64,000 bases of DNA from Hyphomicrobium sp. (GTDB lineage Bacteria > Pseudomonadota > Alphaproteobacteria > Rhizobiales > Hyphomicrobiaceae), in the NCBI RefSeq assembly GCF_019753045.1, contig NZ_JAIELN010000011.1, positions 1 to 64,000 of the forward strand. The letters are read 5' to 3'. The notes beneath the pieces are model-generated. The model made no database searches, was not told where the DNA came from, and worked only from the letters and a program-made list of their open reading frames with translations. Numbering within the stretch: position 1 is the first letter of the stretch; each line of letters opens with the position of its first letter. Shown piece after piece: positions 32,838 through 49,909 of this stretch. The position numbers and the translations under genes were made by a program.

Positions 32838-34337
32838 TTACGCCGTTGTGGTCTTCGACACCTTCACGGAACGAATAGCGGGCTCATCCTCAGGAACCGA
32901 CAACGCCAACTCCGTCAATTTGATCGTGACGCGCGTTCCCGGCCTGACATGTCCAGGGCGAACGGGTTCGTATGCGATCGCACCGGCGAACTGACGAGTC
33001 AGCAGAGCCGCGATTTTTGTTCCCAATCCATCGCTCGCATGACCGGCGCTTCCGTGCAGAAGCTTGTCCATCTCATCGCCCCCTCCCGCATAGAGGTTGG
33101 CATCGACCCCGTTGCCATCATCTTCGACAATGAGCTCAGCTCCGGTCTCACCGGACCGATAAAGGCGAACGCCGACATGGCCTGAACCATCTTCGCCAAA
33201 TGCATGCTTGAAGGAATTCACGACAAATTCTTGCGTCAGAACGCACAGCGACGTTGCAACCTGAGCAGGCGCAAGAAGCGGCGGAACATCAACCGTTAGT
33301 TCAATTCGCCCTTCACCGGCCGTTTCGACCACATCGTCCAACACGGCTTGAATGAGCGTGTCGATGCGCACGAGTTCGAGATCGTTGACGACATTCATAC
33401 GCCGCTGCGCACTCGCGATCGCATGGATACGATCGCGCGCGCCGGTGAGGGTTTTGAGAGACCTTGGATCGGACGTGTGCCTGATGTGCAGGTTGATGAA
33501 GCCGACGACGAGCGACAACGTATTGCCGATCCGATGCGTCACATCCCGCAGCAGCGCTTCGGCACGCTCTCGTTCGCCTTCGGCGCGATCCCGTTCGATT
33601 GCAAGCTCTTCGGTACGCGCTTTCACTCGCGCTTCCAGAGACCTGTTGGCGGAGGTCAGCGTCAGAGCGGTAATTTCGAGCGCTGCCACGCGCTGACGCT
33701 CGCGTATCAACGCGACCATCGCCAAGGCGGCGCAAGCGAGCAATATCGCGAGCATTGCAGCGAGGAGCCAAAAGCTCTGATCGTGGAATTGCGCGACGCT
33801 GACTTCGAAGAGGCGGCGTTGCTGTTGTTCCGTGGCACCGATCTGGTCGCGCAACCGGTTTGAGAGTTCGATATTGAGACTATTAGCGGCATGCTCCGCC
33901 GCTGCATTTGGACTGCCTCTTGCAACGTCCGAAATACTCTTGTCGATCGCTGATAGATGTTCCTGCTGCGCCTTGTCGACGGCCTCGATCCGCGCAAGCA
34001 GCTCTTTGTTGTTCCGCCCCAGCCTGACGAAATCGGAGTGGATGCCGTCGACTGCCTTCTTCGCCGTCTCATACGATGCGAGATATTTCGGATCTCTGGT
34101 GAGCATGTATCCACGCTGCGCGATTTCGAGATCCTGCGCCGCGCTGAGCCACTTCGTGAGACCTTGCTGATAGAGTAGCGTCTGCGCCACGCGATCGCCA
34201 GCCGCAACTGTCCATTGCCAGGCAACGATTGCTGCGAGACCGGACAGGATGGCAATCGAAACCCAGACCAACAGCGTTCGCGTCGCGCTCGACGTTAGAA
34301 ACGCTGCAAATCTCCGCGATATTTGATGGCGGCCCAT
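32838..34337 (-). CDS. CHASE3-domain sensor histidine kinase, HisKA_2/HWE type
   Basis: A 499-residue kinase. A first membrane helix (about 20-42) is followed by a CHASE3-like periplasmic helical domain ('LTKWLSAAQDLEIAQRGYMLTRDPKYLASYE' region), a second helix near 190-212 and a coiled coil ('ANRSLEARVKARTEELAIERDRAEGERERAE'). The H-box is 'LLRDVTHRIGNTLSLVVGFINL' and the N-box 'LTQEFVVNSFKHAF'. 'VEDDGNGVD' and 'GLGTKIAALL' form the ATP lid. Such kinases are typical PhyR kinases. It is convergent with the lone response regulator (19 bases between stops), which makes this a compact two-kinase signalling island next to phyR. Confidence 0.9.
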   Translation of the reverse strand: MGRHQISRRFAAFLTSSATRTLLVWVSIAILSGLAAIVAWQWTVAAGDRVAQTLLYQQGLTKWLSAAQDLEIAQRGYMLTRDPKYLASYETAKKAVDGIHSDFVRLGRNNKELLARIEAVDKAQQEHLSAIDKSISDVARGSPNAAAEHAANSLNIELSNRLRDQIGATEQQQRRLFEVSVAQFHDQSFWLLAAMLAILLACAALAMVALIRERQRVAALEITALTLTSANRSLEARVKARTEELAIERDRAEGERERAEALLRDVTHRIGNTLSLVVGFINLHIRHTSDPRSLKTLTGARDRIHAIASAQRRMNVVNDLELVRIDTLIQAVLDDVVETAGEGRIELTVDVPPLLAPAQVATSLCVLTQEFVVNSFKHAFGEDGSGHVGVRLYRSGETGAELIVEDDGNGVDANLYAGGGDEMDKLLHGSAGHASDGLGTKIAALLTRQFAGAIAYEPVRPGHVRPGTRVTIKLTELALSVPEDEPAIRSVKVSKTTTA

Positions 34338-34598
34338 AACCTATGGAAGCATTGATCGAGGGAAGGATATGCAATGCCACGACTTAGCCGTCGTGCCAAC
34401 CGCTTGTTAGGCCAATTTTCTTATAACGATACTACCATTGGGCTGATCAGATCTCTCGAACTCGCACCACATTTCGCGCAGCAGATCTACTCAATCTATT
34501 TGCATATCGGTCAGTACGTCGCATCGACGCATTTGAATCGAAACCAAGCTAGTTCCTCAGCCCACGTACGCTTCTCAGAAATCCGGCCAAATATCCCG

Positions 34599-34623
34599 GG
34601 AACCGATGCACGCGCGCTACGTT
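34599..34623 (+). promoter_or_regulatory. Perfect EcfG (general stress sigma) promoter upstream of the sRNA candidate
   Basis: GGAAC (34599-34603), exactly 16 bases, CGTT (34620-34623): a full match to the alphaproteobacterial EcfG consensus, in the intergenic region beside the stress locus. A start of transcription near 34630 would run into the terminator at 34696-34740 with no long ORF between. Confidence 0.8.
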
Positions 34624-34629
34624 CTCCCT

Positions 34630-34741
34630 ATGTGGCCGTGCCCGCATACTCCCTCCCCACTCCCCCGTGGCCCAAGGGTACGGCATCACCTAAGAGAGTT
34701 CGCGACCGCTTTCCCCCGGGCGGCGCGAACTCATTTTTTTC
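34630..34741 (+). ncRNA. Candidate EcfG-dependent small RNA with C-rich loop (GsrN-like in design)
   Basis: About 110 bases bounded by a perfect EcfG promoter (34599-34623) and a strong intrinsic terminator. The 5' half folds as a nine-pair stem (34635-34643 with 34676-34684, one G.T). Its 32-base loop holds a run of C and T at 34649-34666 (ctccctccccactccccc), complementary to purine-rich ribosome sites. This is the layout of alphaproteobacterial trans-acting sRNAs such as Caulobacter GsrN, the general-stress sRNA. No flanking gene explains the terminator, because the upstream neighbour is on the other strand. Relationship to GsrN by descent is not claimed. Confidence 0.7.
34696..34740 (+). 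terminator. Strong intrinsic terminator in the intergenic region
   Basis: Perfect nine-pair stem gagttcgcg (34696-34704) / cgcgaactc (34724-34732), extended inside by partly pairing bases, then A and seven T (34734-34740). It acts on plus-strand transcripts, and the only candidate is the sRNA. Confidence 0.9.
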
Positions 34742-34862
34742 TGCGCCATCTCTTCAGTGCCGCCCTACTGCGACCTAGGACCGCAAGCTCGGCCGCAATT
34801 TTCTTCACGCGTGCGCTGATCCGAGCCCGAGATTGATCGATCGGCAAATGATCAGAAAGAAA

Positions 34863-34922: not shown

Positions 34923-35363
34923 ATGAACAAACTGACCTTGAGCCGTGCTTTCATGATCGCCGGCCTTGCCGTAGCGCCCGTAGCGATCAATTCGTCGGCA
35001 CAGGCCCTTTCGTTCGTCAAAACGCAATCCACCGGCGAGCAGAGCACATCGAGCCTTATCGGGTTGCGCGTCGAAAACACCGCTGGCGATAACCTGGGAG
35101 ATATCAACTATCTCGTTCTCGACGAGGCCGGAAAAATCAGCACCGCGGTGATCGGCGTAGGCGGCTTTCTAGGCGTCGGAGAAAAGAACGTCGGCATTCC
35201 CTATAATGAACTGAAGTTCTCCGACAAGGACGGCACGCGCGTCGCCGTCATCGAAGCCAGCAAGGATAATCTGTCCGCCGCGCCAAACTACGTTTGGACT
35301 GAAAATTCCTCGGCGAAAAAGCCGGCTGACGCCACGACGCAAACCCCATCGCAAACTCAATAA
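34923..35363 (+). CDS. Exported PRC-barrel domain protein
   Basis: A 146-residue protein with a signal peptide (cleavage near 'SSAQALS'). A PRC-barrel spans about residues 43-115: 'SSLIGLRVENTAGDNLGDINYLVLDEAGKISTAVIGVGGFLGVGEKNVGIPYNEL' covers most of it. A Thr/Gln/Pro-rich tail follows. PRC-barrel proteins are frequent members of the general stress regulon in Hyphomicrobiales; their biochemical role is unclear. The EcfG-like promoter upstream and the position next to phyR support stress control. Its terminator is clear. Confidence 0.82.
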   Translation: MNKLTLSRAFMIAGLAVAPVAINSSAQALSFVKTQSTGEQSTSSLIGLRVENTAGDNLGDINYLVLDEAGKISTAVIGVGGFLGVGEKNVGIPYNELKFSDKDGTRVAVIEASKDNLSAAPNYVWTENSSAKKPADATTQTPSQTQ

Positions 35364-35428: not shown

Positions 35429-36235
35429 CTACGCAGCGCGTTGACCGGACTTCTTCGAACGAAGCCCGAAGAAGAGCGATTGGCTGATCATCGCCTTCAC
35501 AACAGCAGGCTCGAACGGCTTGGTTATGAGGAACACCGGTTCCGGCTTGGTGCCCGTCAGCAACCGCTCGGGAAATGCGGTGATGAAAATGACGGGAACG
35601 CTGATCGTTTCGAGAATTTCATTCACGGCCTCGAGCCCCGAACTTCCATCCGCCAGATGAATGTCTGCGAGAACCAGAGACGGCGCCTTCTTTGCAACTT
35701 CCGCAACGGCTTCCTGATGGGTCCTCGCGACACCCTGCACGCGATGACCGATATCGACGACCAGCGCTTCGAGATCCATCGCGATCAGCGGCTCGTCCTC
35801 GATGATCAGCACGTCTGCCGAGAGTTGCTCCGCGATTTCCGCGCCGGCCAACTGCAGGAGCTCGGTCACGTGGGCGGGAGTAACGTCGAGAACCTGAGCG
35901 GCTTCCGCCGTTGAAAATCCTTCCACAGAGACGAGAAGGAAGGCCTGTCTCGGAAGGGGCGTAATTGAATCCAAACGCCTTTCTGCCAGCGGCTTGTCGA
36001 GCTGGCGCATGTCGTCGGACACACGGTTCACGGCGAGTGAATTCCAGACTTTGGTGAATGTGCGGTAAAGCGCAACGCGTGGCGCTATCGATCTGTCGAA
36101 CGCATCGGAATCCGCAATCAAGGTTTCGAGCACCGCCGCGACGTAGTTGTCGCCGGATTGCTGGCTACCCGTGAGCGATCGCGCGTACCGGCGCAGATAC
36201 GGCAAATGGGGAGCTATGGATTCGGCTATCGACAT
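35429..36235 (-). CDS. phyR: General stress response regulator PhyR
   Basis: About 268 residues from ATG 36235 (MSIAESIAPHLPYLRRYARSLTG); 20 more in-frame codons upstream are disfavoured. The N-terminal half is sigma-like: sigma2 ('YLRRYARSLTGSQQSGDNYVAAVLETL') and sigma4 ('LPRQAFLLVSVEGFSTAEAAQVL'). The C-terminal half is a receiver: 'VLIIEDEPLIAMDLE', Asp in 'LVLADIHLADGSSG' and Lys in 'FLITKPFEP'. On phosphorylation the sigma-like half binds NepR and releases EcfG. It follows ecfG on the same strand with 129 bases between, rather than being divergent from nepR-ecfG as in many relatives. Confidence 0.96.
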   Translation of the reverse strand: MSIAESIAPHLPYLRRYARSLTGSQQSGDNYVAAVLETLIADSDAFDRSIAPRVALYRTFTKVWNSLAVNRVSDDMRQLDKPLAERRLDSITPLPRQAFLLVSVEGFSTAEAAQVLDVTPAHVTELLQLAGAEIAEQLSADVLIIEDEPLIAMDLEALVVDIGHRVQGVARTHQEAVAEVAKKAPSLVLADIHLADGSSGLEAVNEILETISVPVIFITAFPERLLTGTKPEPVFLITKPFEPAVVKAMISQSLFFGLRSKKSGQRAA

Positions 36236-36364
36236 TTTGCACCTCGTAATCTCGTTTAACGACAAGATGATCAACATGCCGGAGCACACGATCATCTCCG
36301 GAAAGACGTTACGTCCGTGTACTCCATGATGCTGTCCGTCTCAATTCCACGAGTGATCCCGGAG

Positions 36365-36919
36365 CTAACCCCGGCTAACCGATCGCGCAACCCCGACGAA
36401 CTCGCTATTGGAATTGAAATTTTCGCCGACCTCAAACCCGAGGGCCTTGTTCAGAGCCACACGGGCGCGGTTGACGCGGCTTTTCACCGTGCCGACTGCA
36501 GCGTTGGTGATTTCGGCCGCCTCTTCGTATGAGAAACCTTCCGCGCCGACGAGCAGCAAGACTTCCTTCTGATCGTCGCTGAGCACGTTGAACGCTTTCT
36601 TGAAATCGACGAGATCCATATGGACGTGCTGCTCCGGCAGAACGGACATGCGCTCAGCCATTGCGCCATCTGCATCCTCGACCTCGCGGCGCCGCTTGCG
36701 GAGTTCGGAGAAATAGGTGTTGCGCAGGATCGTGAACAGCCACGCTTTCAGGTTGGAGCCTTTCTCGAATCCGTCGAGATTGGACCAAGCCTTGACGAGT
36801 GTATCCTGCACGAGATCGTCGGCACGCGTTGGATCGCCGCAAAGCGAATTCGCAAATGCGCGCAAATTGGGAACGGCCCCGATCAAAAGAGCTTGTAGGT
36901 CGTCGTCACTTTTCGTCAC
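36365..36919 (-). CDS. ecfG: General stress ECF sigma factor EcfG
   Basis: A 184-residue ECF sigma factor of the EcfG group. Region 2 is 'LRAFANSLCGDPTRADDLVQDTLVKAWSNLDGFEKGSNLKAWLFTILRN' and region 4 is 'SDDQKEVLLLVGAEGFSYEEAAEITNAAVGTVKSRVNRAR'. It directs RNA polymerase to GGAAC-N16/17-CGTT promoters under starvation, heat, desiccation or oxidative stress. Its start overlaps the nepR 3' end by 14 bases, so sigma and anti-sigma are made together. Confidence 0.96.
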   Translation of the reverse strand: MTKSDDDLQALLIGAVPNLRAFANSLCGDPTRADDLVQDTLVKAWSNLDGFEKGSNLKAWLFTILRNTYFSELRKRRREVEDADGAMAERMSVLPEQHVHMDLVDFKKAFNVLSDDQKEVLLLVGAEGFSYEEAAEITNAAVGTVKSRVNRARVALNKALGFEVGENFNSNSEFVGVARSVSRG

Positions 36920-37115
36920 GACTCTCCTCCTTACTCTCCTCCTCGCGCTGTTTGAGCTTTTGTAGCAGCGTAACGAACCGATCAGGGACTGGCTCGTTAA
37001 TGAGCTCGATATAGGCTTCCCTCAAACGCTGCCCTATCTGCCCCTGAAGCTCCACCGGTAGCGGTGCCTGCATAGTGACTGAATCCCCTCGCTTGGGATC
37101 ACTGCCCGTGCCCAT
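36906..37115 (-). CDS. nepR: Anti-sigma factor NepR
   Basis: A 69-residue protein with the NepR core 'LQGQIGQRLREAYIELINEPVPDRFVTLLQKL', whose two helices clamp EcfG or, after stress, phosphorylated PhyR. The C-terminus is charged (KQREEESKEESRDEK) and overlaps ecfG. A start at the internal ATG (residue 15) is possible. An EcfG-like promoter 67 bases upstream would make the locus autoregulated. Confidence 0.93.
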   Translation of the reverse strand: MGTGSDPKRGDSVTMQAPLPVELQGQIGQRLREAYIELINEPVPDRFVTLLQKLKQREEESKEESRDEK

Positions 37116-49636: not shown

Positions 49637-49676
49637 GTTAACCTTTCTCGCCCCACCGGCGACGGGCTGATCCTTC

Positions 49677-49837
49677 TACGACGGCAGGTCTCCTGGCTCG
49701 CGGGTCTCAGCGTCTGACGACCTTCCCGGGCATCGGCCCAGTGGTCATATCGCCAGCGCTCGCCGCTCACAGTTGCGGGGGCAGCTGCGGAGTAAATACC
49801 GCATTCCCTTTGAACCCTCTTGCGAGGGACCGTCGTC
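49677..49837 (-). promoter_or_regulatory. Cobalamin (AdoCbl) riboswitch upstream of cobW
   Basis: On the minus strand the order is classic: closing-stem strand GACGACGG (49837-49830), 'AAAGGGAAT', the core 'CTGCCCCCGCAACTG' (49783-49769), the hairpin near 'CCACTGGGCC', the B12 box 'AGCCAGGAGACCTGCC' (49698-49683) and the pairing strand CCGTCGTA (49684-49677). It lies about 40 bases before the first ribosome site downstream. It should shut off the cobW-cobN-cobG-cobH-cobI-cobJ unit when adenosylcobalamin is plentiful. Confidence 0.95.
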
Positions 49838-49909
49838 CCCATCGATAAGTGAGCCACTATCCTTCGTCAATCGCCATCAGCGTCTTCCTGGACCATCCGA
49901 AAGCAGCTC

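Follow-up and report, generated by a model that had tools for sequence, protein, structure and literature searches.

A predicted EcfG-controlled small RNA gene with a conserved C-rich loop in the general stress response locus of Hyphomicrobium

GsrN, a SigT-dependent RNA of ~106 nt in Caulobacter crescentus, has a C-rich 5' loop that pairs with G-rich sites, for example in the katG leader (PMC5869019). BLASTn matches to GsrN are reported to be confined to the Caulobacteraceae, and the homologues typically lie near ecfG-nepR-phyR, although the C. crescentus gene does not (PMC5869019). The same paper also predicts that RNAs like GsrN are encoded at the stress loci of Rhizobium, Sinorhizobium, Brucella, Agrobacterium, Rhodopseudomonas palustris, and Bradyrhizobium diazoefficiens (PMC5869019); from these predictions in the Rhizobiales, one would expect to meet a member in a further genus of this order. 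ReC64 of Rhizobium etli is an 88-nt RNA with an EcfG promoter; it is dependent on EcfG1 and is encoded downstream of phyR-tcrY (PMC3892343). GsrN (PMC5869019) and ReC64 (PMC3892343) are thus experimentally supported RNAs of such design or neighborhood, and small RNAs (sRNAs) of Sinorhizobium meliloti are counted among the components of the RpoE2 circuit (PMC3616915). Among the papers listed in searches of the open-access literature, no title or abstract dealt with an EcfG-dependent sRNA in Hyphomicrobium.

Hyphomicrobium is a genus of methylotrophs. We analyzed a window (the whole stretch of DNA under study, 64,000 nucleotides from the start of a contig of Hyphomicrobium sp.) for which a first-pass annotation, made from the sequence alone, had proposed an EcfG-dependent regulatory RNA of this lineage.

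The stress locus and its RNA gene

A Pfam search of the window's proteins showed that a complete general stress response locus surrounds the RNA gene (Table 1); an HWE kinase and a receiver protein are encoded further upstream. The ECF sigma factor is named EcfG because its gene sits between nepR and phyR. Hfq is also encoded in the genome (108.4 bits; cut-off, 27). Elsewhere in the window, an Rfam search placed a cobalamin riboswitch at 49666-49849 on the minus strand (130 bits).

Table 1. Features of the RNA gene and its neighbors (window coordinates)
Feature	Coordinates	Strand	Basis or detail
Sensor histidine kinase, CHASE3 and HisKA_2	32838-34337	-	Pfam; divergent upstream neighbor of the RNA
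Sigma-EcfG-type promoter, GGAAC-N16-CGTT	34599-34623	+	GGAAC, 34599-34603; CGTT, 34620-34623
sRNA transcript, ~111 nt, predicted	34630-34740	+	Fold, BLASTn relatives, covariance model R1
5' stem-loop	34635-34684	+	Nine-pair stem, 34635-34643/34676-34684; 32-base loop, 34644-34675
C-rich putative target-binding tract, CTCCCTCCCCACTCCCCC	34649-34666	+	Within the 5' loop
Intrinsic terminator	34696-34740	+	Bulged 9+6-pair hairpin, C5 loop, seven T
PRC-barrel protein	34923-35363	+	Pfam; taken as a separate transcription unit from the RNA
PhyR, anti-sigma antagonist	35429-36295	-	Pfam PhyR_sigma2, PhyR_sigma-like, Response_reg
EcfG-type ECF sigma factor	36365-36919	-	Pfam Sigma70_r2, Sigma70_r4_2, PhyR_sigma2
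NepR anti-sigma factor	36906-37115	-	Pfam NepR, PF18557

The promoter, the nine-pair stem, the 32-base C-rich loop, the terminator, and its seven T all lie exactly where the first-pass annotation had put them, and the upstream neighbor, the kinase gene, is on the opposite strand, as it had said. The start of the RNA was placed at 34630 on the basis of its spacing from the -10 element and of the onset of conservation. The predicted 5' loop is long and composite, consisting of ACUCCCUCCCC plus a UCCCCC tip, and a small inner hairpin (34657-34660/34667-34670) has the last six bases of the C-rich tract as its loop. The C run of the loop is, in the window, five C plus CUCCCUCCCC; several relatives have six or more C. 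In the terminator, the outer stem has nine pairs (34696-34704/34724-34732), to which six inner pairs are added, and the T run occupies 34734-34740. Folding of the predicted transcript gave -47.9 kcal/mol (z = -4.72), and none of 200 shuffled sequences was as stable.

Conservation of the promoter, structure, and loop

The first-pass annotation had described a perfect GGAAC-N16-CGTT promoter. The motif is indeed present, but the match by itself is within chance: GGAAC-N16/17-CGTT occurs 110 times genome-wide versus 108 times for the reversed control pattern, and the three matches in the window (1.33 expected) were equaled or exceeded in 18 of 100 shuffles. Because the motif alone is unremarkable, the case rests on comparison. 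BLASTn matched the RNA gene in 14 of the 22 genomes of the genus, one of the matches being 97% identical over 151 of the 156 bases, and the promoter columns were scored in an alignment of these 14 relatives that was not anchored on the promoter. GGAAC was present in 14 of 14, the next C in 13, and GTT in 14, with no gaps in the 25 columns; the first base of the -10 element was C, giving the full CGTT, in 12. Mean majority frequencies were as follows: spacer, 0.49; 20 bases upstream of the promoter, 0.50; six bases separating the promoter from the start, 0.48; RNA, 0.85; and the loop from 34649 to 34673, the best-kept part, 0.91. The invariance of the promoter amid a diverging spacer and flanks is the strongest evidence for the predicted control by EcfG.

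The structure is conserved as well. In a MAFFT alignment of the 14 relatives, standard pairs make up 97.5% of 355 cells, a percentage biased toward the model because the structure was derived from the same alignment. Two-sided changes occurred in 9 of 26 pairs versus 3.0 in shuffles (none of 500 was as high), and in 0 to 1 when the partners were slid. Helix 1, the 5' stem, has 11 pairs and helix 2, the terminator, has 15; two-sided changes occur in four and five of these pairs, and 96.8% and 98.0% of the cells are paired, respectively. Small length changes aside, the C-rich loop, ACTCCCTCCC..CTCCCCC..GTGGCCC, is near-invariant in the 14 relatives, and in the examples that were folded its last C run lies in the loop of the small inner hairpin. 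An alignment across Hyphomicrobium genomes had been suggested as a check on whether the promoter and terminator are retained, and among the 14 relatives the promoter and the terminator hairpin were kept while the T run varied. The run is at least five T in 7 of the 14, four T in another four, and three T in G005, G019, and G002, which argues against a strong terminator in every relative.

These results bear directly on the idea that promoter and hairpins have come together by chance, or that the region holds a terminator only. The genome-wide frequency of the motif, about the same as that of the control, would allow such an arrangement, but the invariance of the promoter in 14 relatives, the covarying stems, and the fold z score of -4.72 contradict it and make it very improbable.

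A second alternative is that the region encodes a small stress protein. The first-pass annotation had described it as having no ORF; in fact, two mechanical ORFs, 34374-34778 and 34606-34836, run across it, although the relatives preserve no frame of uniform length. An ATG at the inferred start opens 68 codons in the window, and a GTG three positions further on is common to at least 11 of the 14 relatives. However, the frames from this common GTG vary from 18 to 64 codons among relatives, and those from an internal GTG near the loop vary from 9 to at least 100 codons (among the three longest frames listed for each genome). The lengths of several indels are not divisible by three, and the changes at paired positions compensate for each other. 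We therefore give the coding interpretation scarcely any credence.

The RNA could also be the leader of the downstream gene, an attenuator or 5' untranslated region whose hairpin is a conditional terminator. The PRC-barrel gene lies on the same strand 183 bases downstream, and the short T run in half of the relatives would fit a conditional terminator. But the downstream gene varies while the RNA is retained in all 14. A gene for a DUF1328-like protein of ~57 residues is next in 11 of the 14 (L004 to L014), where it has its own GGAAC-N17-CGTT past the RNA terminator; the identity of this protein was tested on one representative, L004 (Pfam, 52.9 bits; cut-off, 27). In the window, G003, and G020 this gene is absent and the PRC gene is next. 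A leader is thus highly unlikely. The further EcfG promoter at 11 of 14 loci indicates that the locus makes use of promoters of this type. We also observed a CsbD-like gene downstream of the RNA in L009 and, by look, in L010 (one CsbD representative was tested).

Distribution in the genus and beyond

In all 14 relatives the RNA gene has the primary PhyR on one side and a relative of one of the two window kinases on the other. A covariance model, R1, built from the transcripts of the 14 BLASTn relatives with the promoter excluded, added G007 to the carriers. Two more, G016 and G017, were added by a promoter and architecture scan of phyR regions; they have diverged sequences in the same place and are missed by R1. 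Both have the promoter, a C-rich stem-loop, and a terminator, and their assignment is by promoter, architecture, and synteny; G016 has the weakest fold (z = -2.78), with a stability reached by 2 of 200 shuffled sequences. All three added carriers have the promoter, but G016 and G017 were picked partly by means of it, whereas G007, which has GGAAC-N16-CGTT at the right place, was found without it.

All 17 genomes with a primary PhyR (76 to 100% identity) thus carry the RNA gene next to the primary phyR, and these are 17 of the 22 genomes of the genus. R1 gave no match at an E value of ≤0.01 in the five genus genomes with only a ~55% PhyR, and a scan of the paralogous phyR loci of three of these five noncarriers (G010, G011, and G012) yielded no candidates. 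A second PhyR of ~48 to 55% identity is present in most genomes of the genus; the copy in the window's own genome is at G000:C4:299716-300495.

At the level of sequence, the gene, its promoter, structure, loop, and terminator hairpin, and the locus are conserved. This conservation and the 17-of-17 co-occurrence support the proposal of an EcfG-dependent regulatory RNA of the lineage, for which the kept promoter, covarying stems, and kept loop all argue. The Hyphomicrobium stress locus very likely contains a genuine sRNA gene under the control of EcfG. Its control by stress would follow from what is known of EcfG.

Beyond the genus, two genomes of the family, G101 and G102 (genus g25), have an R1 match together with GGAAC-N16-CGTT, in G101 at ~8 kb from phyR. 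Candidates of similar architecture were found near phyR in G026 (with GGTT and a 15-base spacer) and 4.7 kb away from it in G097. Across the order, R1 matched in 6 of 397 genomes, 5 of them in the genus. A match in G545 (E = 0.001) was rejected, having no EcfG promoter within 300 bases, and the weak matches L030, L031, L033, and L035 to L039, which have no properly placed EcfG promoter, were left out of the gene counts. Three of these weak matches, L031, L033, and L036, from other genera of the family, show a C-rich hairpin and a terminator with no Rfam match at the gathering score; they are perhaps a separate C-rich RNA family.

The genus and family scan covered 40 regions, 39 around phyR and one (L073) around an R1 match. 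It gave nine loose and seven strict candidates, compared with 0.15 and 0.05 per shuffle. The scan was not blind, because R1 had already pointed to L042, L072, and L073, and the shuffles overstate its significance because real promoters are destroyed in them too (164 versus 8.9, strict). Seven of the nine candidates are plausible. The other two were set aside: L040:5420 is antisense within ecfG, and in L044 the T run comes only 50 bases past the promoter. At the level of the order, 60 phyR regions, about one per genus and drawn among the matches listed (154 of the 219 genomes with a match), gave three sporadic candidates (L198, L222, and L232) versus two in 20 shuffles combined. The class-wide pattern GGAAC..CGTT..CCCCCC was found in 53 of 387 genomes, and its reversed control in ~69; because the control exceeds the pattern, the pattern says nothing about distribution. 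In Rfam release 15 no family reached its gathering score at the RNA, and the best match below it, BcKCsr2 (12.8 bits versus 40), is at chance level. By sequence, the family is essentially one of Hyphomicrobium, and the design of the RNA may be wider than the genus.

Proposed action, targets, and comparison with known RNAs

Taken as a whole, it is quite likely that the RNA is a trans-acting sRNA of the Hyphomicrobium general stress response that works as follows. Activated PhyR would take NepR off sigma-EcfG, and EcfG-RNA polymerase would then initiate at about position 34630 from the GGAAC-N16-CGTT promoter and stop at the terminator, at 34740. The ~111-nt RNA would adopt the 5' stem-loop and the terminator hairpin, and its C-rich loop, probably with Hfq, would pair with G-rich leaders or Shine-Dalgarno regions and so alter the translation or stability of mRNAs. 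We infer the pairing mechanism and the use of Hfq; that the RNA acts through pairing of the C-rich loop is reasonably probable from the analysis.

We looked for targets in several ways. KatG was found in 8 of the 22 genus genomes, some of which are incomplete assemblies, and in only 6 of the 17 carriers (G000, G007, G015, G016, G017, and G020). Pairing with the katG leader is therefore not a conserved feature, and a conserved target, if there is one, would be other than katG. The complement of the loop, GGGGAGTGGGAGG, searched with one mismatch in 22 genomes, gave 49 matches (6 of them the RNA gene itself) versus 78 for the control; this complement fits the loop type of most relatives, and the window loop has one extra C. 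When the window loop was paired with eight leaders in the window, ecfG was best (-31.1 kcal/mol), with 1% of shuffled loops as strong. Among the carriers, however, the ecfG pairing fell below 5% in the window only and was at 20% or worse in 13 of 17 genomes, so we rejected the idea that ecfG is a conserved target. In the window, the C-rich loop is strongly complementary to the purine-rich stretch around 36919, at the start of ecfG, where this gene overlaps nepR. Pairing with the PhyR leader reached 2 to 3% in G014 and G005 only.

Thus, the coarse searches (the loop complement in 22 genomes and ecfG pairing in 17) found no conserved mRNA target. This result, and the fact that the single-stranded C-rich loop is the most constant part of the RNA, could mean that the RNA acts as a sponge, for a protein or another RNA, rather than as a regulator that pairs with mRNA. 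But the target searches were coarse, and pairing of a C-rich loop with G-rich mRNA sites has been demonstrated for GsrN (PMC5869019). We regard a sponge as unlikely and prefer an mRNA-pairing regulator.

The class-wide pattern search also revealed a second RNA gene of this kind in the same genome, outside the window, at G000:C1:392932-393056 on the plus strand (locus L124:2433-2557). Downstream of its GGAAC-N16-CGTT lie three hairpins that have C runs in their loops (z = -10.8). BLASTn found it in 7 of the 22 genus genomes, the match in G013 being a partial one of 29 bases. The six full copies have a promoter spacing of N16 in three and N17 in three, and their hairpins are conserved in the alignment. 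In Rfam, this RNA gave matches below threshold only (6C, 37.1 bits versus 47; ar14, 30.4 versus 58.8). Within the genome, neither RNA matches the other by BLASTn, which means that the two share a design, not a sequence.

Two such RNAs raise the possibility of a posttranscriptional arm of the stress response in which C-rich loops act as anti-Shine-Dalgarno decoys that lower the translation of many mRNAs with G-rich leaders under stress, rather than as an activator specific to katG. We offer this idea tentatively and consider it doubtful. If it is true, the C-rich EcfG RNAs would be a convergent stress output of the alphaproteobacteria and not one inherited gsrN. Apart from this, the stress response of Hyphomicrobium gains an RNA gene that has a precise location and whose promoter, structure, and loop are conserved; the rarity of katG among its carriers and the second EcfG-type C-rich RNA in the genome add interest to it.

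The closest experimentally tested counterpart by place is ReC64, which lies in the ecfG1-phyR region (PMC3892343). SmelA075 and SmelA099, from the Rhizobiales, resemble the Hyphomicrobium RNA in having C-rich loops able to pair with Shine-Dalgarno sequences, but they have three or four hairpins, each with CCUCCUCCC (PMC3927594), whereas the RNA described here has one C-rich 5' loop of another sequence.

The first-pass annotation had drawn a parallel with GsrN, and for the mechanism the parallel is apt (PMC5869019). Compared by design, the two RNAs are alike in EcfG/SigT-type control, size, a 5' loop with a C run, and an intrinsic terminator, features that in the Hyphomicrobium RNA are predicted. 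GsrN exposes a run of about six C in its 5' loop, and such a run is found in the Hyphomicrobium RNA also; the long, composite loop of ACUCCCUCCCC and UCCCCC is, however, unlike that of GsrN as described there. Like the GsrN homologues of the Caulobacteraceae, the Hyphomicrobium RNA is encoded near ecfG-nepR-phyR. GsrN is cleaved to a stable 5' isoform, and its full-length form is dependent on Hfq, which the Hyphomicrobium genome encodes. Where the parallel fails is in the target, since katG, the proven target of GsrN, is mostly absent from the carriers of the Hyphomicrobium RNA. This difference makes it testable whether C-rich EcfG RNAs share a general role or have recruited their targets lineage by lineage.
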